From: a virus
Strand: one strand, 5' to 3'
IMG/VR virus record: IMGVR_UViG_3300021963_000651
Coordinates: 1-23,800 of that record
Length of the DNA stretch: 23,800 nt
Shown: piece after piece, positions 1-23,800 of the stretch
How the letters are laid out: each line of letters starts with the position of its first letter
Position numbering within the stretch: position 1 is the stretch's first letter
Made by a program: the position numbers and the translations under genes
The notes under the pieces: generated by a model
Databases searched by the model: none
Seen by the model: only the letters and a program-made list of their open reading frames with translations
What the model was told of the DNA's origin: nothing

Positions 1-1455
1 TCTCAGTTCTTATCTGACGGTACAAGTTTTGAGTTATTATATGACGTAGATTTTGCTTCTAATTTTAATATTTCCAATAAAATGGACAGAAGTAAGACCC
101 CAATTTACACAAATGGGGTTTTAAGCGCATATAAGATCACAAAAACTGGTATTGTTGTGGCTGGTACAACTAGAATTTATACCCAAGTTATAAACAACAC
201 AAGACCATTTTATCAAATAACACTACCAGAAAATAATGTTTTATCGATTGAATCGGTAATACATAAAAACGGTACGAACTACCAAACATTACCAACCCAA
301 AGCGAGTTTTCGTCTGATATTAATAAATGGTATGAGATGCCATCTTTAGCGGAAAATTCAATTTTTGTTGATGATAAAACAGTTGCACCAGTTAATGGTG
401 TTTATAGTGGTAGTTATATGAATGTTGATAGAAAATTCATAAAAGAGTTCACACCAAACGGATTTTGTATTTTAACATTTGGTTCACAAACAAACCAAGG
501 GTTAGATATTTTAGATGATTTTGTAGATGGTGGTGGTTTTGACCTTAAAAGTTTCTTAAATAATGATAGTTTAGGTTGGGCACCATTAAATAACACAACA
601 CTGTATGTTAAATATAGAGTTGGTGGTGGTGCGGACACCAATGTCGGTGTTAATACAATTACAACAGTTGGTCAAGTTGGTATGAATCTTAACGGCCCTG
701 ACGCACAAACTAACGCTATTGTTCAAGGATCATTAACAGTTAAAAATATTACACCAGCTATTGGTGGTGGTGATGCCCCATCAATTGAAGCATTAAGAAA
801 TTATATCTCATACAATTTTGCGGCACAAAATAGAGCTGTGACCTTACAGGATTACAAAGCGGTTTTATTGGGTATGCCACCAAAATTTGGAACGCCAGCA
901 AAGGCGTCAGTTACTCAAGTCCAAAATAAAATTAATGTTGGTATTCTTTCAACAGACAGTGATGGTAATTTAAGTGATTTGGTATCAACTGTTGTACTAC
1001 AGAATGTTGCAAATTATTTATCCAGATATAGAATGATAAATGATTATGTGGTTGTTAAACCAGCATCAGTTATAAATGTTGGATTTGAGATATCAATACT
1101 AACTGAATCTGGTAACCAAGTAAATGCCATAGCATCAATTGCTCAGTTATTAAAGGATGAATTCGATCAAAATAAAATGCAATTAGGTCAAAGTTATTTA
1201 GTCGGTACGCTAATTAAAAAAATATCGCAAATTGATGGTGTTTTAAATATCAACTATATTAAGGCATTTAATAAAGTTGGTGGTGGTTATTCAACCAGTG
1301 CGTTAGATAGTACTATGATATTAGACATAAACACAAATGAAATTGATATAACATCTGGGGCAATAAAAGTTTCAGGTGATCAAATATTACAATTAAAATC
1401 ACCAGAAAAAGATATTGTTGTTATCCCAGTAACACAAAACACCTCAATAATATAA
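1..1455 (+). CDS. T4 gp6-like baseplate wedge protein (baseplate J family), 5' end missing
   Basis: The frame is open from base 1, so the gene starts left of the window and 484 C-terminal residues are visible. The ATG at 82 is internal: the upstream codons encode compatible protein (SDGTSFELLYDVDF). The best marker is at about 820-870, AAQNRAVTLQDYKAVL, which matches the conserved AxxRAVTxxDYKA-type segment of T4 gp6 and related baseplate J proteins. After it come alternating beta and helical stretches and a C-terminal part (LIKKISQIDGVLNI) typical of the family's ring-forming domain. In T4, gp6 dimers tie the wedges together around the tail hub and move during contraction. That role is inferred here from family membership. 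It implies a contractile tail. The next gene starts two bases after this stop, so they are almost certainly co-transcribed. Family call is fairly secure; exact gp6 equivalence is less so. Confidence 0.82.
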   Translation, partial: SQFLSDGTSFELLYDVDFASNFNISNKMDRSKTPIYTNGVLSAYKITKTGIVVAGTTRIYTQVINNTRPFYQITLPENNVLSIESVIHKNGTNYQTLPTQSEFSSDINKWYEMPSLAENSIFVDDKTVAPVNGVYSGSYMNVDRKFIKEFTPNGFCILTFGSQTNQGLDILDDFVDGGGFDLKSFLNNDSLGWAPLNNTTLYVKYRVGGGADTNVGVNTITTVGQVGMNLNGPDAQTNAIVQGSLTVKNITPAIGGGDAPSIEALRNYISYNFAAQNRAVTLQDYKAVLLGMPPKFGTPAKASVTQVQNKINVGILSTDSDGNLSDLVSTVVLQNVANYLSRYRMINDYVVVKPASVINVGFEISILTESGNQVNAIASIAQLLKDEFDQNKMQLGQSYLVGTLIKKISQIDGVLNINYIKAFNKVGGGYSTSALDSTMILDINTNEIDITSGAIKVSGDQILQLKSPEKDIVVIPVTQNTSII

Positions 1456-8854: not shown

Positions 8855-9757
8855 ATGGCTATCGGTGTTTATGGGGTTAAAAGACCCGCAGATGTGGATC
8901 CTAACGATATAGAAGTAGTGGTTATTTACACTAAAACTAGGAATGCGGGTGAATCGCAAATAATAACAAAACTATTTGGTAATCAAGTAATTAAACCAGT
9001 TATGTCAACACCAGAATTTGGTGGTAAAGACGTTGAAATACTTGGTGGTTTATATAACATGACATTACCAAAAACTGTTTTTAATCAAAAAGGGTTCTAT
9101 ACGATATACATTAGACCAGCCCAAATTAGACTTAAAATTGAGGATTGTGCTGAATTGGCGACATATCCTGATGTTAAAGGTTTGGTTTTTAACATTGATA
9201 CAGCCCCAACAAACTTTATCAATAAATTTACGAATAATGGTTTAGATGGGTATAGAATTGAATATCTAAATAACGATGGCACCAAAATACCCAACTTATA
9301 CAGAATTATCACATCATCTTTTATCGCTGAACCAGTACAAATTAACACACCAAACTCGTCTCAAAAGTCGATTAAATACATTTATAACAATGTTGGTAAT
9401 ATGCTATTCTGTACTGTAACACCAAACACAGCTCCTAGTTTTAAACCAACATCAGCTCCATTTATAGGTAGAAAAGATCAAAATATCATCATAACCAACA
9501 CCAACTTTTCTCCACAGATAATAGAAGTTGAAATGGTAAATTATGATTTGGAAAGTTTAGCCATAGGTTTATTCGCTGATCAAACAAAATCAATGGATGA
9601 TGGGATATATACATTATACGATTTTGATGGTAACATTTATGCGCAATATGATCTATATGAGATTAGAGACGCTGTAGATAAAAAATTATTTGAGGTCAGA
9701 AAGAAAAGAACAAGTATTGACACAACAAAAGCCCTAAACAGAATAGTTAAACAATAA
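8855..9757 (+). CDS. Unrecognised baseplate-region protein, 300 aa
   Basis: A 300-residue protein starting MAIGVYGVKRPADVDPNDIE, a compact N-terminus that probably folds at once; there is no signal peptide. The body alternates predicted strands with loops (FYTIYIRPAQIRLKI near 88-102, and NLYRIITSSFIAEPVQI near 147-163). The C-terminal 75 residues include DGIYTLYDFDGNIYAQYDLYE and a basic, helical end (about 265-300, VDKKLFEVRKKRTS...). A basic helical tail after a beta body is compatible with docking onto a larger partner, which is inference only. Its TAA stop shares one base with the next gene's ATG (TAATG), so it is translationally coupled to the giant 2526-residue protein. The family was not recognised. 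Confidence 0.6.
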   Translation: MAIGVYGVKRPADVDPNDIEVVVIYTKTRNAGESQIITKLFGNQVIKPVMSTPEFGGKDVEILGGLYNMTLPKTVFNQKGFYTIYIRPAQIRLKIEDCAELATYPDVKGLVFNIDTAPTNFINKFTNNGLDGYRIEYLNNDGTKIPNLYRIITSSFIAEPVQINTPNSSQKSIKYIYNNVGNMLFCTVTPNTAPSFKPTSAPFIGRKDQNIIITNTNFSPQIIEVEMVNYDLESLAIGLFADQTKSMDDGIYTLYDFDGNIYAQYDLYEIRDAVDKKLFEVRKKRTSIDTTKALNRIVKQ

Positions 9758-12700
9758 TGGCTAATATTAGTTTTACAACAGATAATAGAATCATACGTGA
9801 TTTGTATGATACCGCAGATGCGGCCTATGAGGCATCAAGAGCACTTGGTTGTGATGGTGGGTATCGAACATATTTAATTAATGGTGAAACTAAATATGTA
9901 CCATGCTCTTCATATGTGCAATATGAGAGTGCATTGAGATATAAAATAGTCCAAGGTAAAATTGGTGCGTTTGGTAGTGATACATTTGGTGATAAATTAG
10001 TTGGTTTACAATTTGCTAACGCTAAAGATGAAATCGCTGGTGATCCGTTTTTTACGTTAGGTAATTTCGGTATAAACAAAAGTGTACCGTTTTCACAAAA
10101 CCAAATAAGACAAACACAATTAAATCTAAATGCGGCTTCAGTACAAAATGATGCCACTAAAAGTTTTACGGTTGAAAGCATTGCTCAAAGAAATTTAACC
10201 TATTTTGAGGGTAAGTCGTATGTTGAGACGTTAAAGAAAAAAGTTGATTCAAACATTACAGCTAAAGTTCTTTTTGATAAGAGAAAATTAGATAATTACG
10301 TTTTATTCTCATCATTAAAAGATAGGATAAAAAATGTTTTATTAGAAATTTACAACCAATATCCAGCGGCCATTAAACTAAGTGCTGTTTCGGTATTGAA
10401 CCCAACAATCGCAAATTACGCCACTTATCCATTAGAAAAACGTTCAGAATTTAAAGTTAATTTATACGGTTTAACAAACCCTTTCGGTATTGAATACACA
10501 ACATCTGGATCAACATTACAAGATAGTGAGACCATAACAAAATACAGAAACTTTACAAAAACATTTAAGGATTATGTTTTACATTATGATGGTGTTGAAT
10601 ATGAAATATTGAGTGCGACATTACCAACTAATTATAACGATGATGCAACTGGTATTAAATTAAGTATTAACGGTGACCCATTTAGTGCGCTAGTCAATGT
10701 TAACGGTGAATTAAACGCTGGATTTTATTTAAAACCAAAAAAGGCTGTATATGATGAATTTTTTAATAATTTATCTGACTTGGCTGCGTTTTTATTAAAT
10801 AAAGACGAAAGTGGTAATTATGTGAGCGAATTTTTATTCCCTAAACTATCAGATGACGGTAAGTTGTTTAATGTAAAAGAAACGGTATCATTCCCAAAAT
10901 ACGATGAATTTAACATTGATATGTTTGCTGATCCGTTTGATGTTTACACAACCAAATTAAATGATTTAGCGGATAGTTATGATTCAGTTAAAACAAATTT
11001 AATAGCTAGGTTTTTAACAACAGATAGTTTACAAGAATTCGACACCGATGATAGAAAAGCTAACCTAGTTTTCCAATTGTACGGTAAACAATTTGATGAG
11101 GTTAAAAAATATATTGACGGTATTACATTTATGCGTAACGTTAGTTACAACAAAATTGAAAATATACCAGATTTATTGATTAAGAATTTCGCCACAATGC
11201 TTGGGTTTAAATCCTACGAAATTGAGGATGAGGATAGTTTAATTGAGTCGCTATTCCAATTAGATGACAAAAATACGTTAAAAACGATAACACCAGCTGA
11301 ATTGGACATTGAGATTTGGAGAAGAATAATGATAAACGCAATTTATCTTTTCAAATCAAAGGGTACTAGAAAATCAGTTGAGTTTATTTTAAAATTAGTT
11401 GGTTTACCTAACGAAGTTTTTGATTTAAATGAATTTGTCTATACTGTTGAGAATCCAATAAACCCAATAGATAGTTTAAATAAAATCTATGAGGGTGATA
11501 GTAGGTATAACCCAAATAAATTATTTGATATAGTACCATTTGATTCAAAGGGTAACCCAACGGTACCTAAAACTGTGGTATACCAAGAAAACGGTGGTTA
11601 TATCTTTGAGGATAAAAACAATGTTGGTTTATTTGATTTCGGTAAAAAATATATCAATGAGTACAAAAAATTCAACCAAGTTAAATTATTCACGTTAGAT
11701 AGAACAATTGATAACGTAAAATCTTGGGTATATACTGATAAGACAAAAGAATATGTTGCTGACGATTTAAATGGTTATACCGAATATACCGTAGACTCAA
11801 GTGATCTTGTGATTAACTCAAAGGAGCTTGAAGTTTATTTAGCATCAAATAGAGTTTTTGATGTGACAGTTTATAGGCAATATTATAGAAATATAGGTTT
11901 AGTTAATAGTGATTTAAATATAAATTCAGCATTAAAATTTGACGTTTCATCGTTATCATTTAATCAATTCATAAAGAAATCTTTAGACAACTTTATAAAT
12001 CCAACCAATAGGAAAACAATCAAAACATACCCAACTTTAACAAAGTTATATTTTGATTATTTAAAAACAACATCAACACCGATAACATCAGCCGTTGCTT
12101 TAGATTTTTTAAGTAAATTTGACACATCTTGGGTTAAATTGATTGAACAATTCGTACCAGCGACATCAATTGTTAATGCTGGTAAAAAAGTGCAGAACTC
12201 AATATTTTTAGATAATAAATTCATTTATAAACATGGTAAAAATGAAAAAGTTGGTTGGTTAGGAACTGACGGTTCAGAATTCCAACAAGCGGCACTTAAA
12301 CCAGTTTATTTGGGTACGACAAATGTTACCGAAAATAATGGTATTATTCGTGAAACAATAGTTGGTGATTCACCAACATTCCAAATTAGTGGTAGACAGG
12401 GAACTAAAATCATTGGAACCGATCCAACAGTAAATGAATATTTTGGTGTTCATTATGGTATGTTTGAATACTGTGATACAACTGAAGGTAGATTTTATGT
12501 TTGGGAGTCTGGTGTTGATTATGGAAATGATACCGTATTTGGTGGTAATATTAACAAGGTACTTTACACCACAACTGAACAAAGATATGGGGTATTTGTA
12601 GTTTATGATGGCTCGGTTTATAGGTTAAATACTAGGTACCTATTTCAAGGTACTGGGGCTATACCAAATATACACACAGCTGGTACTGGTGTTGCATTAT

Positions 12701-15700
12701 CAAACACATTACCACCCAATAGAGCAACTGTAACAAACACAGCTGGTATCACTAAAAAAATATGGGATCATATTCATATGGATGTTGATACAAGAACAAT
12801 CACATTTGGTGATACTTTAAGTTTAGGTATCCGTCAATCGGAGCGTTCGTTTTATATGAATAGTATTGGTAGAGCTTTAGCGTATGCCCAACTCGGTATT
12901 GATTTTGATTGCCCACCACCAAAACCGCATGTTTGTTACTATGATTTTAATGGTAAAACCATAAATTTAACAACATATGTTGGGTCAACATATAAAACGT
13001 ATTTAGATGAAACTGGTGCTTTATTATCGGTTAAACAACCTAAGTTTTATGGTTATAGTAGAGATTATTCGGGAGAACAACCAACTGGGGTAACACACGG
13101 TTCATATACACAATGGGTTGTTCCTTATAAAAAAAGATTTGCATGGGAATTAAATAAGGTATATTATACTGGTGAAATAATAGCTAACATTCATCCAACA
13201 CATAAATCAAATTTAGTCTATAATAGTAATGTATATTTAGTAACGGGTACAACTACCCAAAATTATATTATAGGTACTGGTGGTACTTACCCAGCAACAG
13301 CTCCACTTGGAACTAAACTAATAGCAACAGCCAGTGCAACATCGGTTACGACTGGAGCAAGCGTTAATGCAACAACAATTACTGGTGACACACCAGGTAG
13401 TATGTTTGGTAGATACCAAGATAGGACTAAAACCGATCCGTTTATGCATGTTGATACGGCATTCATAAATAAAATTAAATTAAACCCAAATCAAACTGTA
13501 CACTCAGTTAATTTAACTAAGTCGTTAAATTTAGCACATATTTTTAGCGGTAGTACGGCAGCTACAACATATAGAGTTTCGGATAATATCGTTAATAACG
13601 AATTATTCATTTCCGATTCAATTAGTGTATCATTTGATGGTTTTTATCACATAGATAAAAACAAGATAGGGCCTTTTTATATATTAAAAGATGATAATAT
13701 TTTTACACATACTTTAAATGAATCAATTTTATTATCACCAGATACTGATAATTATATTTCAATACAATCATTAAATGAAAATTTTGAAACCAACGGTAAT
13801 GATTTAAATTTAATTAACGCAACAAATGGTTATTATTTAATAACTAAAAACTGTTTTTTAAATTTTAATTTCGGTTTATATTTTGAGTCTGTAAATAATG
13901 TATTGCAAACTGTTGAGATTAAATTAGTTAATAATTTGGGCTATGTGTATGACACACAATTATTTGATTTTATTGGTGACGACTCTGGTGATTTAAGACA
14001 ATATTTGTTTCAGTATTCTGGATTTTTTAATGCTGGTGAAAAAATTTATCTTGTAATTAAACCAATAAATTTGGGTTGTACTTTGACTAGATACGAAAAA
14101 GTAAATGTTGATTATACAGAACCAACAACATTTGACCCAATGAATGACCCAAGATTTAGATTATTATTTAATTCTGGTTTTAATGGTAAAGGTTACATTT
14201 CCGAAGGGTTCTCAATCAAACCAATCTATAACCTAGCGGATTTTGGTACTAATTCAATTCAATATAAAAATGATGCTGTAAAATACACTGATTTAAATAT
14301 ACCAGAAATTAATTACACTTCAGATCCTAGTTATTTATTTAACACTTTATTTTACAAATACTATTCAAAGTTTGGTCAAGGTCAAATTGTTTACGATACA
14401 ACTGAATTTGATAAAGAGCTTGGTAATGATAAGATTGATTTCACAATTACATTAAGAGGTAAAAATGAAAATATCGCAGCGGATGCCTTAGTTAATTCAA
14501 ACCAAGCTAGCAATAGTGCTGTCGGGGTTGAAAGTAGTAAAGTCGAATTTAGCGTATCTTTATTTGATTATTATTTAGGTAATACACCTGAGGTTACTGA
14601 ATTTAATAATGTTAGTAACACAATATCAATAGGTAAAAACCCACGAAATAGAAAATTGGGTTACACTAGAAATATAAATTACATACCAGCGTATAGTTTT
14701 TATAATGGTGGTTCCATTGGAACTGGCACAACACAAACAACCGCAATATTAAAATCATATGATGATGGTTTATTGGATTATACAAAATTAAATTATTCTT
14801 TTGATTTTGTAACACAATTAAAATTATATAAGAGATTTTATACAGATGTACCTAGTGGGACTAATTTTAGTTATCATAAATTAGAAAATCAAATATATGA
14901 CAGTGAAATATATAAAGCTGTTTTGGATAAAGCGCCATTATTTAATTCAAAAATTATTAATTACGAATTAAATGATATTGTTAAAGTACCTGTAGAAAAC
15001 TATAAAGTCGTTGTTGATACACCAACAGGTAAAACTGTTGAAATCAAAACGGTTTATAGATTATTTGTTTGTGTTAATGATATACATAAAGATCATTGTT
15101 ACAAAGCCCAATTAACCTCTACTAGCCCAGTAGTTCAAGGTGATATTCACCCAGTCTACCGACCAATGGGATCTAGATCTTGCTTTGTACCAATTGAAAA
15201 ATATAACCCAGCCAATTTTACACCTTGGGGTTATGAAGAATTTAACTTTGGTGCAAAACAAAATGCCAACTTAACGGATTATATTTATAAAAATATAAAA
15301 CCATACGACCCAGAAAGTTCAGATTATAAATTTGGTGATGTCTTTATTGGTAGTTTTGAGGATGTAAACTCATTTTTTAGATATGTTTACCAAAAACCAT
15401 TAGCGTACTCAGCAACCACAACATATAATCCAGGCGATTTTATTTTACGAAGTGAAACTGTTAGTGGTGTTACATATAATAGATTTTATTGTGCTAGAAC
15501 AACAACAACAAACCACGCACCACCAACACCACAATTTAATGCCACTGGTGGTACAATATCTGGTGTTGGTAAAACATGGAACACATATTGGATGAGAATT
15601 GGTGGTGATTTATTTGACCACAGATCTTTAATTGGTACACCTGGTACAACACCAACGGGTATAACAATATCGGGTATTACGTCATTTGGTACAACTTGGG

Positions 15701-17337
15701 TTAACTGGGATAGTTATACAGCATTCGGATCGACTGCGGCCAGGATACCAAAAACGTTACCAATAACAAGTGGTGGTACACCATATATCACAACTGGAAC
15801 TAGTACTGGTTATACTTATCATGGTATAACGTATGGTAAAAAATACAATTCACTATTAGATTTAAATAAAGTTTATATCGAACAAAGTTACCAACACTTA
15901 GATACGTATGAAACAATTAACATTAATAGGTTATTTAGGGCTAAAAATACCAGTGGTGGTGCCACAGATTTAAGAAATTATAGTGGTGTTTATGCTTTGG
16001 GTACAACAGATACTGATGCATATAAAGATTATAGTGGAACACTTAGAACTGGGAAAACAAACATATATTTAAAACCTGGTTATCCAATTGATAACACTAG
16101 TAATTCATATTACGTGTATCCGTTTTTTAATGATTTATCTGGATCGGATCCGTTATTCGAGAGATTAGGTTTTGTTAGCGATAAAAACAACCCAACAAAT
16201 TGGGTTGTCGGAACCACAGGAACAACTTTCCAGGGCTCAAATTCAGACCCATTATATTTGGGTGCCAAATATGCGGTTAATAGAGGTGTACTTTATAAGT
16301 ATATGGGGGCTGGTAATTTAACATTAACAGCAACCACAACTGAACCATATAACGACTCGACCAATTGGGAAGAAAGAGATTTTTGTCTGGTTAATAATTT
16401 CACTTTTTATAAAGATAGAACCAAAGTTACCGTATTTGAATCTGATATTGAAAGTTTAACAACAGATGTTAAAAATAATTTGTATTTCTATAATAAAAAT
16501 TTAGCGTTAAAAAGCGGATTCACTAGCAGATCTTTCAGTGGCTCAACAATTAATAATAAATTAATGACAGCGCTAGATAAATTTTACGATATAACAGATG
16601 AAAACAGAATCACACCTGGTTCACATGGTATTGTTGATTTTAGAGCTAGTGGTAATGACATTATTTTAGATTATTACCCAGAAAAAGACCAAGTTGGATA
16701 CCCATTAACAGGTGAATTTATAGGTAGATTAAAATTAACAAACCCTTGCGGTCAAATGGCCACAACGTTTTTTGGTCTTTTATTTGATACCGATGTTACA
16801 TTACTGGATAGGGCTACAAATATAAGCTCAGCTCCAGTCGTTATCCCTGAAACTGCGGATATTTTACCATATTTAACCAGAATTATTGTTAATCAAAGCG
16901 CTAATGCTTCAGCTACTATAACGGTTAAATATATTAGCACTGAAACATCACAAATTGTTACAGATACTAATATTGTTAATAGTAAAGGTTTACTCGATAA
17001 AAAATATGATGTTATGCCTAACACCAATGTTGAAATTAGTGTTGAGTATGAAACTGGTAAATTCCAAACAAAATTTGGTTCAGCGTCAATAAATGGTAAC
17101 CCGATATTTGTTAATGATCAAATTAGTGATACAGTTACATTAAAAACATCACTAACAAAATCAACAAATACTAGTGGAAAAACAATTGAAAATAGGGGTC
17201 TTATTATTAGAGATATTACAGAAAATAAAACTGTTTATGTAAACTTAATTGGTATTGTAGAACAAACCTCACAAAACACTGAAACATTTGCAAAATATAA
17301 TATAGAGCAAATTAAAGTAAGTAACAAAAATTTATAA
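9757..17337 (+). CDS. Giant tail/baseplate protein (2526 aa) with gpI-like region and fibre-like extension
   Basis: At 7.6 kb this single uninterrupted gene is almost a third of the window. Residues 1-60 contain GCDGGYRTYL and KYVPCSSYVQYE, a paired-cysteine motif (C32, C50). Residues about 466-560 resemble P2 gpI-type tail proteins: IENIPDLLIKNFATMLGF, then EIWRRIMINAIYLFKSKGTR with the typical KGTR at 535-538, then SVEFILKLVGLP. In that family this region sits at the baseplate and carries fibres. The following ~1900 residues are Thr/Gly/Asn/Tyr-rich and beta-stranded, with aromatic modules that look carbohydrate-binding-like near 1127-1170, 1882-1946 and 2144-2203. The end (about 2370-2526) looks like one or two beta sandwiches. 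The start is fixed by the TAATG overlap with the preceding gene. Role inferred: a linker or arm joining baseplate to adhesion structures. The gpI assignment is by motif only, and no frameshift is visible. Confidence 0.72.
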   Translation: MANISFTTDNRIIRDLYDTADAAYEASRALGCDGGYRTYLINGETKYVPCSSYVQYESALRYKIVQGKIGAFGSDTFGDKLVGLQFANAKDEIAGDPFFTLGNFGINKSVPFSQNQIRQTQLNLNAASVQNDATKSFTVESIAQRNLTYFEGKSYVETLKKKVDSNITAKVLFDKRKLDNYVLFSSLKDRIKNVLLEIYNQYPAAIKLSAVSVLNPTIANYATYPLEKRSEFKVNLYGLTNPFGIEYTTSGSTLQDSETITKYRNFTKTFKDYVLHYDGVEYEILSATLPTNYNDDATGIKLSINGDPFSALVNVNGELNAGFYLKPKKAVYDEFFNNLSDLAAFLLNKDESGNYVSEFLFPKLSDDGKLFNVKETVSFPKYDEFNIDMFADPFDVYTTKLNDLADSYDSVKTNLIARFLTTDSLQEFDTDDRKANLVFQLYGKQFDEVKKYIDGITFMRNVSYNKIENIPDLLIKNFATMLGFKSYEIEDEDSLIESLFQLDDKNTLKTITPAELDIEIWRRIMINAIYLFKSKGTRKSVEFILKLVGLPNEVFDLNEFVYTVENPINPIDSLNKIYEGDSRYNPNKLFDIVPFDSKGNPTVPKTVVYQENGGYIFEDKNNVGLFDFGKKYINEYKKFNQVKLFTLDRTIDNVKSWVYTDKTKEYVADDLNGYTEYTVDSSDLVINSKELEVYLASNRVFDVTVYRQYYRNIGLVNSDLNINSALKFDVSSLSFNQFIKKSLDNFINPTNRKTIKTYPTLTKLYFDYLKTTSTPITSAVALDFLSKFDTSWVKLIEQFVPATSIVNAGKKVQNSIFLDNKFIYKHGKNEKVGWLGTDGSEFQQAALKPVYLGTTNVTENNGIIRETIVGDSPTFQISGRQGTKIIGTDPTVNEYFGVHYGMFEYCDTTEGRFYVWESGVDYGNDTVFGGNINKVLYTTTEQRYGVFVVYDGSVYRLNTRYLFQGTGAIPNIHTAGTGVALSNTLPPNRATVTNTAGITKKIWDHIHMDVDTRTITFGDTLSLGIRQSERSFYMNSIGRALAYAQLGIDFDCPPPKPHVCYYDFNGKTINLTTYVGSTYKTYLDETGALLSVKQPKFYGYSRDYSGEQPTGVTHGSYTQWVVPYKKRFAWELNKVYYTGEIIANIHPTHKSNLVYNSNVYLVTGTTTQNYIIGTGGTYPATAPLGTKLIATASATSVTTGASVNATTITGDTPGSMFGRYQDRTKTDPFMHVDTAFINKIKLNPNQTVHSVNLTKSLNLAHIFSGSTAATTYRVSDNIVNNELFISDSISVSFDGFYHIDKNKIGPFYILKDDNIFTHTLNESILLSPDTDNYISIQSLNENFETNGNDLNLINATNGYYLITKNCFLNFNFGLYFESVNNVLQTVEIKLVNNLGYVYDTQLFDFIGDDSGDLRQYLFQYSGFFNAGEKIYLVIKPINLGCTLTRYEKVNVDYTEPTTFDPMNDPRFRLLFNSGFNGKGYISEGFSIKPIYNLADFGTNSIQYKNDAVKYTDLNIPEINYTSDPSYLFNTLFYKYYSKFGQGQIVYDTTEFDKELGNDKIDFTITLRGKNENIAADALVNSNQASNSAVGVESSKVEFSVSLFDYYLGNTPEVTEFNNVSNTISIGKNPRNRKLGYTRNINYIPAYSFYNGGSIGTGTTQTTAILKSYDDGLLDYTKLNYSFDFVTQLKLYKRFYTDVPSGTNFSYHKLENQIYDSEIYKAVLDKAPLFNSKIINYELNDIVKVPVENYKVVVDTPTGKTVEIKTVYRLFVCVNDIHKDHCYKAQLTSTSPVVQGDIHPVYRPMGSRSCFVPIEKYNPANFTPWGYEEFNFGAKQNANLTDYIYKNIKPYDPESSDYKFGDVFIGSFEDVNSFFRYVYQKPLAYSATTTYNPGDFILRSETVSGVTYNRFYCARTTTTNHAPPTPQFNATGGTISGVGKTWNTYWMRIGGDLFDHRSLIGTPGTTPTGITISGITSFGTTWVNWDSYTAFGSTAARIPKTLPITSGGTPYITTGTSTGYTYHGITYGKKYNSLLDLNKVYIEQSYQHLDTYETININRLFRAKNTSGGATDLRNYSGVYALGTTDTDAYKDYSGTLRTGKTNIYLKPGYPIDNTSNSYYVYPFFNDLSGSDPLFERLGFVSDKNNPTNWVVGTTGTTFQGSNSDPLYLGAKYAVNRGVLYKYMGAGNLTLTATTTEPYNDSTNWEERDFCLVNNFTFYKDRTKVTVFESDIESLTTDVKNNLYFYNKNLALKSGFTSRSFSGSTINNKLMTALDKFYDITDENRITPGSHGIVDFRASGNDIILDYYPEKDQVGYPLTGEFIGRLKLTNPCGQMATTFFGLLFDTDVTLLDRATNISSAPVVIPETADILPYLTRIIVNQSANASATITVKYISTETSQIVTDTNIVNSKGLLDKKYDVMPNTNVEISVEYETGKFQTKFGSASINGNPIFVNDQISDTVTLKTSLTKSTNTSGKTIENRGLIIRDITENKTVYVNLIGIVEQTSQNTETFAKYNIEQIKVSNKNL

Positions 17338-17366: not shown

Positions 17367-20099
17367 ATGAGCTACATAATAAAGAAAAACGAACCATTGG
17401 TTAATTTAAAATTAACCGACACTGGTAGGAGGAATCTATCATCTGGTAGTCTAACTTTCACATCATTCAGCCTTGGTGATGGTGAGATGGATTATAGCTC
17501 TGATAATTTTACAAAAGTTAATATTTTAAGACCAGTTGATAAACAACACGATATACAATACCCCGTACCAAGTGAGGGTAGTAATTATAAATTACCAATA
17601 TCAATACTAACATCACTACCTAATGAAGTATACACCACAGCCAAAGAACGTGGATTTTTTATTTACGACACAACTGGTGGGACTATAAGTGTTGATAATA
17701 CTTTAACACTAATTGGTAATTTAAGCGGGTCAATTATTAGTGGTGCAACACAAAGCGGTAATAAAAACCAACTTGATTTAGTTTATACTAATGTCAGCTC
17801 AAAAAATACAGCATATAGAACAACTGTTAACACTGGTGATTATTTGTTTGTTAAATTTAATACTAGTGGTTATACAAATAACTACACAGCTTCAGCTATT
17901 AGTGAAATAGGTATCGACCCAACACCATTTTTGATGTACCAAATCACTGAAATTATTGATACAACTGGTGGAACAGTTTATGATGCGTTTGATTTAACTG
18001 GGTATACTACTGGTGTAACACTTAGTTTTGGATTAGACAGGATGCTACCTAATTTTAGTTTAGCTGATGTTGAAGCATATATTTACCCAGGCCCTCAAAC
18101 AATTAAAAATTATTATGATAATGAAACACCAATAGCGTACTGGAACGGTGGTTTATTGGATTTCACATCAAATTGTACTCTAGCTAATGATGATGTACCT
18201 GTTTGGAATATGAATATATTGACAATAGAAGAAATCATTGGTTTGGATAATACCTTATATAAGGGTAAGTACTTAAATAACGGTAGAGATTTTTGGGGTA
18301 CAGCGATAAACTATGATTATTTCTTAACAAATAGATTAGATAAAGTTGGTCTTATACATTACACAAACAATTCTGTTAGTAATTTTTATGCTGAGGGTTT
18401 TTATAGAAACACATTAACATTAAAGTTACCGTATTTAATGTGGCATAAAAAACAATTTGGTGGCCCAGCGTTGGCTGATGATATAGGGTACACCTTTGTT
18501 TGTGATACCGAACTAAAGTCGATGGGTACAAATAATAGTATATTTTATTATGATTTGGTTGATCAGGAGGTTGATAAGACTGTTGTTGGTAAAGTTTTGA
18601 TTGATGAAAAGATTATAATAATCGAACATCCAGAATTATTAACAGCTTTATCTTATAAATCAAATAGAAATTGGACATTACCAAAACCAAAACTAACGTT
18701 AATTCAACCAGGAGCCTGTCCAGGTAATAATACGTTAGGTGCATTACAACCAAACGAAGCGTTACACGTTACTTATTTATTTTTAGATACTGATGGTATT
18801 ACTGGTATTCATTGTGAAGATTATACAACAATATCAAACACAACTAGTGTGGCACAAGATGTTGTATTTGAATTCCCAAAGAGTAACACAGACCCAACAT
18901 ACAGCGAATTTGGGTATTTAAAAAACTATACGGATATTGAGGGTTATGGTTATAAAACAAACTCAATAATTTTATTGTGGCAAAAAACACAGATTAACAC
19001 ACTACCAGACCCAATCGATTGGAATAAATTAAATATCAATAGATTTATGGGCACCAATGGCTGTTTAAGTAATGTGACCAGTCTATGTGATGATTTTACA
19101 TTATACACGGAAACTGGATTTTACCCATCTAATTTTGATATATCTGTTGCTGATAGATATAGTTTAACTAAACAACCAATTGGTGAGGTTATTGTGTCAC
19201 TAGACGGTGGCATATTAACTGAGGCGTCATCTTTAGCTAATCTAGGTATTGATGGTGATTACTATGTTTATCCATTAAATGTTTTATCATCAACAAACAA
19301 CACACCAATAATTGAGTTTACCGCTGGATTAATTAATTCATCAACAAACAAATATGTTTTATTTCATTATCTAATTGGTACAACAAGTACATCAAAAACT
19401 ATTAGAAAAAATATAGATATACCATTAAGCGGTGTACCAACTGGTAATACCTATGTTGATGGTGTTTACATTGTCAATGGTAATATCGCACTTACATTGG
19501 ATTACCAACCAAATAATGACGTTGTTTGGCTATTTTATAATGGTCAATTAGTAAGTTCAAATAATTACGGTGTTTACCCAACTGGAACCACAGCTGAAAG
19601 ACGTGTTGAATTGACTTTCACTCCTTCAAATGGCTCAATGATATCTTTATTCTATTTAGATAATAGTGGGTTGGGTCAGGATCCAATAAACACAACGTTT
19701 ACATCAGCTAATATCGAAAAATTAAGAGTTAACATTGACAAATCTTTATTAGATATTAGTATTGATACGAAATATGATTTAAATGATTATATTCAATTAG
19801 CCGAATTAAATTCACCAACTGGACATACATTTGGTGACGAGACGTTCTTTTATGGTAATATAACAACGGATGTTAAAGCGACAATATATAAATCGTTGAT
19901 AACATGTAATGTACTACCAAATAAATTTATAAATTCAGCTAACCCAACATTTAACCCAAATCAGGATAAAACATGTTTTACCGAAATGGGGATTTACGAT
20001 AATAATGATGAGTTAGTCGCTATTGGTAAATTTAGCCAACCGTTAATTAGAAAATATAATTCGGATATGTTAATAATACAAGCAACAATTGATTTTTAA
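17367..20099 (+). CDS. Tail-collar-fibre-like protein, 910 aa, with a very large internal insertion
   Basis: The N-terminus carries LTDTGRR (16-22) and SLGDGEMDY (35-43), a pattern like the start of the phage tail-collar fibre N-terminal domain (LTxxG...GDG). The last 40 residues carry the matching end of such a domain: TEMGIYDNNDELVAIGKF (872-889), then a final strand (LIIQATIDF). In P2-type fibres these two halves lie roughly 100 residues apart; here about 830 residues separate them. The middle includes a conserved-looking stretch VGKVLIDEKIIII and YKSNRNWTLPKPK (about 410-440), and many Thr/Asn-rich strands. There is no signal peptide or catalytic motif. The start follows the first spacer, so this may open a new transcription unit. 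Role inferred: fibre attachment or decoration. Its stop directly abuts the next ATG. Confidence 0.7.
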   Translation: MSYIIKKNEPLVNLKLTDTGRRNLSSGSLTFTSFSLGDGEMDYSSDNFTKVNILRPVDKQHDIQYPVPSEGSNYKLPISILTSLPNEVYTTAKERGFFIYDTTGGTISVDNTLTLIGNLSGSIISGATQSGNKNQLDLVYTNVSSKNTAYRTTVNTGDYLFVKFNTSGYTNNYTASAISEIGIDPTPFLMYQITEIIDTTGGTVYDAFDLTGYTTGVTLSFGLDRMLPNFSLADVEAYIYPGPQTIKNYYDNETPIAYWNGGLLDFTSNCTLANDDVPVWNMNILTIEEIIGLDNTLYKGKYLNNGRDFWGTAINYDYFLTNRLDKVGLIHYTNNSVSNFYAEGFYRNTLTLKLPYLMWHKKQFGGPALADDIGYTFVCDTELKSMGTNNSIFYYDLVDQEVDKTVVGKVLIDEKIIIIEHPELLTALSYKSNRNWTLPKPKLTLIQPGACPGNNTLGALQPNEALHVTYLFLDTDGITGIHCEDYTTISNTTSVAQDVVFEFPKSNTDPTYSEFGYLKNYTDIEGYGYKTNSIILLWQKTQINTLPDPIDWNKLNINRFMGTNGCLSNVTSLCDDFTLYTETGFYPSNFDISVADRYSLTKQPIGEVIVSLDGGILTEASSLANLGIDGDYYVYPLNVLSSTNNTPIIEFTAGLINSSTNKYVLFHYLIGTTSTSKTIRKNIDIPLSGVPTGNTYVDGVYIVNGNIALTLDYQPNNDVVWLFYNGQLVSSNNYGVYPTGTTAERRVELTFTPSNGSMISLFYLDNSGLGQDPINTTFTSANIEKLRVNIDKSLLDISIDTKYDLNDYIQLAELNSPTGHTFGDETFFYGNITTDVKATIYKSLITCNVLPNKFINSANPTFNPNQDKTCFTEMGIYDNNDELVAIGKFSQPLIRKYNSDMLIIQATIDF

Positions 20100-20687
20100 A
20101 TGGGATTTATAAAAGATAATACAAACACATTTGAGGTTTATTTAACGGATCTTGGTAAAGAGGTGTTTTTTAAAGGTGGTTTTAAAGATTCGGTCGTATA
20201 TTTTTCAATGTGCGATGGGGACTCTAATTACCAAATTTTTATGCCAGATAAATATAGAGTTGCACCATTTAAGAGTGGTACTTTATATTACAATGGCGAT
20301 GTTGTATCATATGGAACATCACCTGTTAAATATTATAGATATAAACAAGCTAGTTCATTAGGAACTAATTACGCACCAACCATGGCAACATATTGGGAAG
20401 AGATTGATATATTTGATCCAAGATCAATAGAAACACAAGCAATACCAACAATAAACCACAATAATACAAAACTTACATCATTAGGCAATGGTACCATGGG
20501 TAACGCTGACGATTATGTCAATGATGTTTTTGTCCAAGTGCCACTAAGGGGTAAAGTTGCTGATAATATAGAATATAGAAGGGCTTTATTGGGTACTAGA
20601 CAAAATACACAAAAAGAATATATAATGAGGGAGCCAGACTTCAACTCAACACAAACATTAAATTTATTAACATACACTAATATATAA
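20100..20687 (+). CDS. Collar-domain-like protein with carbohydrate-binding-like module, 195 aa
   Basis: Residues 15-20 (LTDLGK) and 36-44 (SMCDGDSNY) match the motif of the 910- and 80-residue proteins at nearly the same spacing. Directly after it, residues 59-102 form an aromatic module: SGTLYYNGDVVSYG, then KYYRYKQASS, then NYAPTMATYWEEI. The Y-x-x-GD-x-V, Y-x-x-Y, P...YW order is that of small CBM5/12-like modules found in chitinases and phage tail proteins. The rest (about 105-195) is probably the continuation of the collar-like fold, with VPLRGKVADNIEYRRALLG. The start ATG immediately follows the previous TAA, and the stop overlaps the next ATG (TAATG). Role inferred: fibre or baseplate decoration able to contact host sugars. 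The sugar-binding activity is not shown. Confidence 0.66.
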   Translation: MGFIKDNTNTFEVYLTDLGKEVFFKGGFKDSVVYFSMCDGDSNYQIFMPDKYRVAPFKSGTLYYNGDVVSYGTSPVKYYRYKQASSLGTNYAPTMATYWEEIDIFDPRSIETQAIPTINHNNTKLTSLGNGTMGNADDYVNDVFVQVPLRGKVADNIEYRRALLGTRQNTQKEYIMREPDFNSTQTLNLLTYTNI

Positions 20688-21606: not shown

Positions 21607-22320
21607 ATGAATTATTATAACGACACTAATATATCCACACCAACATCTAACATAGCTCAAGCTGAGTTATCAACGGTTAATTTATATACAAAAAAATTAG
21701 CCATTCAACCAGTTTTTGATTTTAAAATATTTCGTGATGATTTCTATATTAATACACATGGTGTTAGTGTTACAGAATCGACAAAATCTTTTACAACACT
21801 AAATAATGGTTTATTTCATATTTTAAATAAGAATAACCAGCCCATGGTTTTTAATGGTATCACATTAACATCGGTTAGGTTTAGAAATGAAAGTGCGGTG
21901 CCAGCAAATACATTAAAACATGTATTTGTTAATACCACATACAATGCATCAAATACATACGCATACGATAATTACAATATATTATTTAGATCCAATGTTA
22001 TTGGTACATTATCAATTAGTAGAAGCGTAGAACACGCAAATGATCTAAATTTTATTTTAAACCCCTTCCAATCAATCCATTTTGGTGCAACATACACCGT
22101 TAAAAATGTTAATTTATTGGATGTCCAATATTATGGTGCGAGCAACATTAATAAAGATAAAAAAGTTGGTACATTAGATATGAGACTTACAATAAAATCA
22201 TTCACTGATCTCACCCTTACCACACCTATATATGACTCAATGACAATTACCGTTAATTTGGTCAATTCGGGTTATGTACCATCAGCATTATCAACTGGCT
22301 CAGGTCAAAACGTATCTTAA
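21607..22320 (+). CDS. Unrecognised fibre/tail structural protein, 237 aa
   Basis: Starts two bases after the previous stop; no Shine-Dalgarno sequence is visible. The protein is strand-rich and Asn/Thr/Val-rich. Recognisable stretches include FDFKIFRDDFYINTHGVSVTE near 37-57, NNGLFHILNKNNQPMVFNGI near 67-86, and TVKNVNLLDVQYYGASN near 162-178. The C-terminal VNSGYVPSALSTGSGQNVS looks flexible. Overall it resembles a small all-beta virion component, with no enzyme signature. Its 3' end contains an in-frame-shifted ATG (22274) that could be misread as the start of the next gene; see that entry. Family unknown; the tail or fibre role is inferred from neighbours only. Confidence 0.56.
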   Translation: MNYYNDTNISTPTSNIAQAELSTVNLYTKKLAIQPVFDFKIFRDDFYINTHGVSVTESTKSFTTLNNGLFHILNKNNQPMVFNGITLTSVRFRNESAVPANTLKHVFVNTTYNASNTYAYDNYNILFRSNVIGTLSISRSVEHANDLNFILNPFQSIHFGATYTVKNVNLLDVQYYGASNINKDKKVGTLDMRLTIKSFTDLTLTTPIYDSMTITVNLVNSGYVPSALSTGSGQNVS

Positions 22321-22321
22321 T

Positions 22322-22858
22322 ATGAAGTATATATATAATTTTAAAGATAAAACAGACATAATAGATAGTGGGATTCTTAGAAGAGATTCTTATGGTCTTT
22401 TTACATCAGAAATTATCGAATTAAATAAACAGTTTAATTATTCCGTATACCTATTCGGTTCATACATTGGGTATCTAATTAATGGGGACAAATACAATGA
22501 TATTGATTTTATTTTAACATCTGAAAAAATATTGGAACTCAATGATTTAACCCAATTTTTTAAATCATTTCATGACATATGTAAAAAATATAATGTTGGG
22601 TACAACCTAATGTACTCAACAGACAAAAATGAGGGTGATTTTGATTTGGATGTGTATAACGGATCGATATTTAACACTGGTTCATCTAAGGTTATTAGAT
22701 TATATAAGAGAATTGATGTTAATAATAAACTTGGATTTGAGTTTAAACCATTAATTGGTACAGAACTATATGAGGGTTTAATGGTACCAGTTAACCAAAA
22801 AATGGCTAAAAAAATGCAAATGGGTGTAAAATTTTATGCCCCAATAAAAATACAATAA
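22322..22858 (+). CDS. Nucleotidyltransferase-like protein (DNA polymerase beta superfamily motif), 178 aa
   Basis: Residues 42-65 show the core signature of the polymerase beta-type nucleotidyltransferase superfamily: a strand ending in FGS (45-47), a 12-residue gap, then DID in a second strand (NDIDFIL, 59-65). The general pattern is hG[GS]x(9-13)Dh[DE]h. A third acidic strand may be DFDLDV (106-111). In this superfamily the acidic residues bind metal and transfer a nucleotide to protein, RNA or a small molecule; the target here is unknown. Length is close to minimal nucleotidyltransferases, without a recognisable extra domain. I chose the ATG at 22322, one base after the previous stop; an in-frame ATG at 22274 would add 16 residues overlapping the upstream gene and looks less likely. 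A non-structural enzyme-like gene amid tail genes is unusual. Catalytic function is inferred from motif only. Confidence 0.6.
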   Translation: MKYIYNFKDKTDIIDSGILRRDSYGLFTSEIIELNKQFNYSVYLFGSYIGYLINGDKYNDIDFILTSEKILELNDLTQFFKSFHDICKKYNVGYNLMYSTDKNEGDFDLDVYNGSIFNTGSSKVIRLYKRIDVNNKLGFEFKPLIGTELYEGLMVPVNQKMAKKMQMGVKFYAPIKIQ

Positions 22859-22907: not shown

Positions 22908-23150
22908 ATGGGTTTAGTAAACACGGGTACAACGGTCGAAATGAAGGTATATTTGACCGAACTAGGTAGAAGACGATTATTGGAGCAGGGTTTTGTTCCA
23001 TCTAGATTTTCATTATCGGATGATGATGTCAACTATAATGCGGATTTATACGTAACACAGAGAGTTGCGGATTTAACTGGTGATTATAATGATAATGTAT
23101 ATTCATTGTCTAAAAACGTAACAATAACAAGCCAAATCATACAAAAATAA
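22908..23150 (+). CDS. Small stand-alone collar-domain-like protein, 80 aa
   Basis: Residues 16-22 (LTELGRR) and 35-43 (SLSDDDVNY) match the N-terminus of the 910-residue protein at identical positions (LTDTGRR at 16-22, SLGDGEMDY at 35-43), and that of the 195-residue protein nearly so. Unlike those, nothing large follows: the chain ends after a short VYSLSKNVTITSQIIQK strand region. It therefore looks like the minimal version of the shared domain. It follows the 49-base spacer and is probably the first gene of its transcript. The A-rich leader and lack of Shine-Dalgarno fit the other genes. Small size lowers certainty, but the motif match argues that it is real. Role inferred: a cap, adaptor or attachment piece for a fibre. 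Confidence 0.66.
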   Translation: MGLVNTGTTVEMKVYLTELGRRRLLEQGFVPSRFSLSDDDVNYNADLYVTQRVADLTGDYNDNVYSLSKNVTITSQIIQK

Positions 23151-23154
23151 CAAA

Positions 23155-23800
23155 ATGAGCTCAATATTAAAAATCAGAGTACCCTTTAAAAGGAGAAAAA
23201 CTGCTGGTGGTGTGGACGGTAGAGCCACATTCTATCTAGAATCAGTACCTAATTATGTACCACAAGTTGGTCAAACGGTGATCATAACCCACACTGGTGT
23301 GCCAGCTAATAGCCCATTAGCAACCAAATTAACCAACATTTCAACAAATACGGTTACAGGTGTATTCCAAAGTGTCGAACAAAATACAACACAAACATCC
23401 ATACAACAAACTGATGGTTTTTCTGTGTTCATGGTATTACAATATACAGATACAACGTTTTCATCAAACCAATTTAATGGTGATTGTACTGGTTATATTG
23501 AATATGATATTAACCCAAGTAATTATAACGTATTAAAACCAATTGAGAGTGCTGTTATTGTAAATGAAAGCATTCCTTTTGATTTGGCTGATGGTATAAA
23601 CACTATTACAAATGGTTTAACTGCGGCTACCATAACTGGTACCACATATACTGGCTACCCTAATTTTATGAAGGGTATGTTTGTTAAAAGAAACGATACA
23701 AACACCATTTTTGCTAACTTGTTAAAATCATTAAACTTACCTGTTACAGATGAGGAAATGAAAAAATACACAAGAAGTGAATACGGTACATTATCGATTG
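23155..23800 (+). CDS. Unrecognised structural protein, 3' end missing
   Basis: The ATG lies four bases after the previous stop in an A-rich context (AACAAAATG), and the frame stays open through the right edge: 215 codons are visible. The N-terminus MSSILKIRVPFKRRKTAGG is basic, followed by Thr/Val/Asn-rich strands (FYLESVPNYVPQVGQTVII near 26-44, FQSVEQNTTQTSIQQTDG near 71-88). Further on come IPFDLADGINTITNGL (about 151-166) and a more helical end (NTIFANLLKSLNLPVTDEEMKK near 184-205). No domain was recognised. The strand-rich composition and co-directional position point to another tail or fibre component, but the missing C-terminus could hold a different domain. Confidence 0.6.
   Translation, partial: MSSILKIRVPFKRRKTAGGVDGRATFYLESVPNYVPQVGQTVIITHTGVPANSPLATKLTNISTNTVTGVFQSVEQNTTQTSIQQTDGFSVFMVLQYTDTTFSSNQFNGDCTGYIEYDINPSNYNVLKPIESAVIVNESIPFDLADGINTITNGLTAATITGTTYTGYPNFMKGMFVKRNDTNTIFANLLKSLNLPVTDEEMKKYTRSEYGTLSI

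Follow-up and report, generated by a model that had tools for sequence, protein, structure and literature searches.

The window analysed in this work is the whole stretch of 23,800 bases corresponding to positions 1-23,800 of the IMG/VR record IMGVR_UViG_3300021963_000651. It includes the gene of a 910-residue protein, hereafter P0001, together with the following features:

1..1455, + strand: Baseplate J / T4 gp6-like wedge protein, 5' end beyond the window (PF04865, E 2.5e-7, above cut-off)
9757..17337, + strand: 2526-aa ORF directly upstream of the P0001 gene, weakly P2 gpI / T4 gp7-like (baseplate wedge; profile matches)
17367..20099, + strand: P0001, 910-aa candidate split-collar protein (ORF and translation; full-length homologs in many IMG/VR contigs)
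17388..17522, + strand: putative N half of the collar domain, residues 8-52 (hhalign to columns 6-40 of the PF12571-type profile, 29.6 bits)
17523..19856, + strand: putative insertion of several beta-rich domains, residues 53 to about 830, with domain-level PDB matches and no PF12571-type match
18684..18737, + strand: break point of the four two-gene relatives, residues about 440-457 (family HMM)
19047..19781, + strand: extra inserted domains, residues 561-805, largely missing in the 710-aa group of homologs
19857..20099, + strand: putative C half of the collar domain, residues 831-910, with the stop codon (hhalign to columns 84-125, 46 bits; structural model)
20100..20687, + strand: 195-aa ORF with an N-half-like element only (motif search)
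22908..23150, + strand: 80-aa ORF with an N half only (HMM, E 0.02)
23155..23799, + strand: start of a protein truncated by the window end (open ORF; homologs in L001, L002 and L003)

The product of 1..1455 also matches PHROG 219 (baseplate wedge, E 4e-9). The 2526-aa ORF has a clear relative in Flavobacterium phage immuto and a weak profile match to P2 gpI. PF09684 matches the corresponding gene of three relatives in one place, below cut-off (E 0.03-0.13), and gave no match in the window's own 2526-aa ORF. Among P2-type records with an annotated upstream gene, that gene is mostly tail protein I or an unnamed tail protein. In P2, gene H comes after gene I; the P0001 gene comes after an ORF with weak gpI-like features, and the gene order of the window resembles P2 J-I-H, T4 6-7-8 and A511 104-105, the gpI-like assignment being weak here. 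A 194-aa ORF located among the tail genes (22274-22858) harbours motifs such as INGDKYNDIDFILTSEK and has a counterpart in the equivalent position of relative L003 (9122-9670).

The P0001 ORF starts with ATG and is devoid of internal stops. A preliminary description had proposed that the protein begins with an LTxxGRR...GDG element and carries a second collar element at its C-terminus. Both were located by motif search, as LTDTGRRNLSSGSLTFTSFSLGDGEMDY (residues 16-43) and FTEMGIYDNNDELVAIGKFSQP (residues 871-892), respectively. In the AlphaFold2 model, the N half comprises a strand (12-16), a helix (18-25) and a second strand (33-37), and the C half comprises four strands (835-849, 870-877, 883-894 and 902-909), the last of which is the final predicted strand of the protein. 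Relatives of P0001 are found on contigs of up to about 360 kb, and every full-length homolog fetched has kept both end elements; the shorter ones are contig-end truncations, interrupted ORFs or two-gene relatives. Overall identity among the homologs is 30-66%, the insertion being included as conserved, and the ends rank among the best conserved stretches, with within-group identities of 0.70 (residues 1-35) and 0.72 (876-910).

Two irregular forms of the gene were noted in this survey. In L003 (5001-7072), the 910-aa homolog is interrupted, yielding a first ORF of 608 aa; the C half lies in a second ORF of 104 aa, which overlaps the first in another frame. A sequencing error, decay or frameshifting may each account for it. 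In L072 (4009-5013) and also in L076, an ORF that contains repeats such as HNNKYDYSLVDYKNNKTKIKITCPTH and may encode a homing endonuclease is joined to an incomplete copy of the 5' end of the gene (MSYIIKNTNPFVSIKLTEKGREQLA). This fusion sits directly upstream of a complete copy of the split-collar gene, and shorter forms of it occur in L070, L073 and L074.

In proteins of the PF12571 family (Phage_tail_fib, DUF3751), such as P2 gpH and the R pyocin protein PA0620, the collar domain is a contiguous N-terminal domain of ~150 residues followed by a trimeric fibre. P0001 departs from this arrangement, since its putative halves occupy residues 8-52 and 831-910. Neither hmmscan against Pfam nor PHROGs gave a usable match for P0001, and PF12571 is absent from the Pfam families matched by 52 homologs. 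The best related PF12571 match, in the L001 genome, covers profile positions 89-108 with 12 bits, below the Pfam gathering cut-off of 23 bits. We therefore compared profiles with hhalign, using on one side a PF12571-type profile of 13 P2-type collar domains, P2 gpH among them, and on the other end profiles cut from a 52-row alignment of the P0001 family. The N end scored 28-30 bits (columns 6-40) and the C end 46 bits (46.4; columns 84-125). Joining the two ends raised the score to 60-64.5 bits (E about 1e-10, probability 97, columns 6-107), as the preliminary description had predicted. The gain was present in 12/12 trims once family-specific insert columns were omitted; a first, wider trim that retained them (residues 822-910) gave 45.6 bits, with no gain over the C end.

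This gain depends on both ends and on their order. Joined in reversed order, the ends scored 46 bits; the N end joined to a middle slice reached at most 33.5 bits, and a middle slice joined to the C end at most 50.2 bits (40 draws each). A family of paralogs of ~400 residues behaved in the same manner, with 34.3 bits for the N end, 44.4 for the C end and 65.2 for the two joined. Thus, the two halves match PF12571 in the native order, N then C. As the motifs LTxxG...GDG and xEMGIYD span few residues and go unrecognised by Pfam, they might be a fortuitous resemblance between beta-rich tail proteins. However, 40 pairs of middle slices taken from the same alignment and joined never exceeded 14.6 bits, compared with 29.6 and 46.4 bits for the ends, and conservation across the homologs peaks at the ends, so that we regard chance as an extremely improbable explanation. 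The initial assignment to the P2-type tail-collar domain therefore holds for the presence and order of both halves and fails at the Pfam cut-off. Since Pfam's own model misses P0001, the kinship lies at the profile-profile level and does not amount to formal membership of PF12571.

The AlphaFold2 model of P0001 has a mean pLDDT of 78 and a pTM of 0.61, with weak stretches present. Its top match with VIA-align is HFTV1 gp44 (Z 9.3, 2.4 A, 113 residues, range 9..910), and the two ends of P0001 together hold roughly as many residues as this alignment. The model also superposes on T4 gp7, with residues 11..910 on gp7 113..620 (Z 6.7, 3.6 A). Because such ranges give only the first and last aligned residues, we also modelled a 386-aa paralog. 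Its model matched HFTV1 gp44 with Z 9.2 (range 4..386), followed, at Z 5.7-7, a range that carries the tool's own warning, by A511 gp105 (180 aa; Z 7.0, 117 residues, 3.9 A, range 21..386), the phi812 arm protein (174 aa; Z 7.0, range 24..386), a 107-aa phage connector (Z 6.7, 94 residues, 3.0 A, range 25..386), KP1 (Z 6.2) and T4 gp7 (Z 5.7, range 11..386). The remaining matches were a phiKZ protein (Z 5.4) and others at or below 4.2; T4 gp8 was not among the structural matches listed for the paralog model. Foldseek alone gave weak E-values only, and a sequence search of the PDB returned no solved PF12571 domain.

The best matches of the paralog begin within its first 25 residues and reach the end of the chain, so that the outermost aligned positions of this 386-residue chain fall within single domains of 107-180 residues. 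In the models, both chain ends appear to lie within one compact unit, and the alignment ranges suggest that residues 9-45 of P0001 would pack against residues 835-910. The ends are thus predicted in one domain, in line with what had been anticipated from the sequence, and the superpositions on single baseplate domains span both of them. Taken together, the profile matches and the superpositions at both ends indicate that P0001 very probably has a collar domain interrupted by some 780 inserted residues.

Domain-level PDB matches within the insertion correspond to residues 114-240, 577-672 and 674-767, and the last two segments resemble domains of baseplate wedge, neck and tailspike proteins. 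The length of the insertion varies from about 580 to 816 residues across full-length homologs, both ends being retained. In 34 homologs of the 710-aa group, the gap fraction over residues 561-805 is 0.68-1.00; the near absence of this segment from that group argues for domains gained or lost inside the insertion, with the ends unchanged. The match of P0001 to the P2-type profile stops at column 125/149, and the fibre of P2 would begin beyond that point. The chain therefore ends inside the collar domain, with no fibre to follow. This agrees with the earlier proposal that the rest of the protein is an inserted excursion rather than a C-terminal fibre, the C half at 831-910 closing the chain. That the excursion has the shape of a closed, loop-like arm is a guess, and a closed chain is not required, since the chain is broken midway in four relatives.

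A circularly permuted or truncated P2-type tail fibre, i.e. a receptor-binding trimer with a relocated fibre, would also account for the sequence kinship of both halves with PF12571 and for the position of the gene behind a weakly gpI-like ORF. Nevertheless, the halves come in the PF12571 order, N before C, which argues for an insertion and against a permutation, and the chain stops within the collar domain. Moreover, the insertion is conserved along with the rest of the protein, unlike a variable fibre tip. We thus consider a rearranged fibre very unlikely.

In the four broken relatives (L043, L101, L102/L103 and L114), the protein is encoded as an N gene and a C gene, each with its own start. 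On the family profile, the N genes run from position 1 to 450-451 and the C genes from 465-468 to 711, so that each polypeptide carries one half of the collar domain. For L043, L101 and L102, the halves joined across the two genes scored 54.4 bits versus 26.3 (N) and 41.2 (C). In L101, whose two proteins have 434 and 242 residues, the C gene begins three bases after the end of the N gene. A search with the family profile found no intact copy in the contigs of L043, L101 and L102, which are possibly fragments. The four two-gene relatives form a single clade (100/100), adjacent to the single-chain L104, on a midpoint-rooted tree. This topology favours one fission without proving it, and fission rather than fusion is the likely origin of the two-gene forms as far as a tree rooted at its midpoint can indicate.

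Two further ORFs were noted around these genes. A 412-aa ORF with repeated, propeller-like NGGxTW-type motifs lies exactly between the two half-carrying genes of L043 (6556-7794). In single-chain as well as two-gene relatives, the C-half gene is followed by an RuvC/RNase H-like ORF (LGLDVSTKTIGVALF, SLDISTTNIG; L001:12251-12712, L002:11996-12592, L043:8824-9456 and L114:5652-6284).

Elements resembling single halves are also encoded elsewhere in the window. The 195-aa ORF that follows P0001 occupies the gene position of the ~400-aa two-half paralog of the 710-aa group; its counterparts in L001 and L003 gave weak HMM matches (E 0.06-0.2), and the 195-aa ORF of the window scores under the threshold. 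The protein truncated by the window end has homologs of about 590-650 residues that terminate in a C half. In the 900-aa group, we identified 24 pairs in which an 80-aa-type N-half ORF precedes a 590-650-aa C-half ORF with a spacing of -25 to +9 bases. A single N-half ORF precedes one C-half ORF in Rhodothermus phage RM378, two in immuto and five in Mel-JY01; a second match in RM378, at E 0.05, is doubtful. The five ORFs of Microcystis phage Mel-JY01 that each end in a C half behind a single N-half ORF are located in L006:688-10303.

These unequal numbers of N-only and C-only ORFs, five to one in Mel-JY01 and two to one in immuto, are the best argument for a C half that stands alone or finds another partner. 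The two ends of P0001 could accordingly be separate modules: the N-terminal one would serve as an anchor, the C-terminal one would be a beta domain sufficient in itself, and domain shuffling from a shared pool would have brought them together. The LTxxGR element is missing from RM378 gp128 and from the C proteins of Mel-JY01 and immuto, and the halves of the 80-aa/590-650-aa pairs are weak (22.3 and 26.6 bits) and gain nothing from being joined (26.6 bits). In contrast, for both families, that of P0001 and that of its paralogs, joining the ends raises the profile score, and does so only in the native order; moreover, compact single domains superpose onto both ends of the paralog model. We therefore consider independent modules unlikely. 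A broader proposal is that the collar domain is a two-part docking unit whose halves lie on one chain, in adjacent genes, or in an N-half gene accompanied by several C-half adhesins. The halves would reassemble between polypeptides, and outward parts would be exchanged via the C-half carriers. We put this forward as a speculative extension that we hold to be rather doubtful.

The preferred reading of P0001 as a split collar domain has parallels among known baseplate proteins. The P2-type collar domain is thought to connect the fibre with the baseplate (PMC6363177). Such domains and the A511 gp105/T4 gp8 connectors form the link between the wedge protein and receptor-binding proteins (PMC6363177, PMC10811340, PMC9863714), and A511 gp105, the phi812 arm segment and T4 gp8 have been termed BW3-tail fibre network connectors (PMC10811340). 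Connectors of this class are dimers. P0001 shares with the PF12571 proteins the same halves in the same order, but they are separated by ~780 residues, and nothing comes after them. Unlike P0001, A511 gp105 and the phi812 arm are compact (174-180 aa) and have no insertion. We found no sequence link of A511 gp105 or T4 gp8 to the domain: an 8-sequence gp105 profile scored at most 18 bits, and controls reached 16. In phage Vp4, Gp119 consists of a gp105 homolog and two carbohydrate-binding modules (PMC11406892), a precedent for accretion onto a connector.

The best structural match to both models, HFTV1 gp44, spans both chain ends. It is described as the baseplate hub of an archaeal siphovirus (PDB 9h4p; PMC12494034), and its collar-like domain is placed behind hub domains, unlike that of P0001. 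Inspection by eye of residues 378-953 (L098:23025-25889) suggested compact and split collar-like copies in tandem. HFTV1 gp44 seems, from its sequence, to hold one copy of each kind: the compact copy corresponds to about residues 378-510, and the split copy, with candidate halves at 512-572 and 885-953, surrounds a carbohydrate-binding domain. Profile support for the split copy is weak (28.6 bits joined versus 17.8 unjoined), and the passages of PMC12494034 consulted do not present gp44 as a split collar domain. T4 gp7 (PDB 5iv5, 5hx2) superposes over both ends of P0001 and of the paralog with Z values in the weak range, so that its fold may be the same, with candidate halves at 113-175 and 575-622 and about 400 residues between them; it shows no sequence similarity. 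T4 gp7 also includes a wedge-core part, which here would fall in the upstream ORF. Thus, the split topology does not appear to be unique to P0001 but common to the solved structures of T4 gp7 and HFTV1 gp44. We found no paper on a split tail-collar domain in the literature searched, the coverage of which was partial.

Our analyses suggest that P0001 is most likely a baseplate-periphery connector with its outward part in an internal loop. We consider it probable that the anchoring tail-collar domain is split and that ~780 beta-rich residues are looped out from between its halves. The anchor would be a beta-alpha-beta plus four-strand domain of the tail-collar type, made of residues 1 to ~52 and then ~831-910, with the beta-rich domains exiting from and re-entering the loop between the halves. 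By analogy with P2-type collar domains and the A511 gp105 / T4 gp8 connectors, it would dock on the gpI / T4 gp7-like wedge protein encoded upstream, and the inserted domains would face outward, possibly holding or forming receptor-binding parts. Their placement in an internal loop would allow domains to be added, such as residues 561-805, or the chain to be cut into two genes, the anchor remaining unchanged.

An unannotated family of jumbo-phage proteins can now be tied to a baseplate anchor that is already known. Split-collar proteins of this kind would escape searches designed for a collar domain with a C-terminal fibre behind it. The natural two-gene versions provide direct test material for how a split anchor reassembles. 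P0001 indicates, as T4 gp7 and HFTV1 gp44 seem to do as well, that an internal loop of the anchor can accommodate large domains, and such a split build would let phages attach new parts while the anchor stays put.
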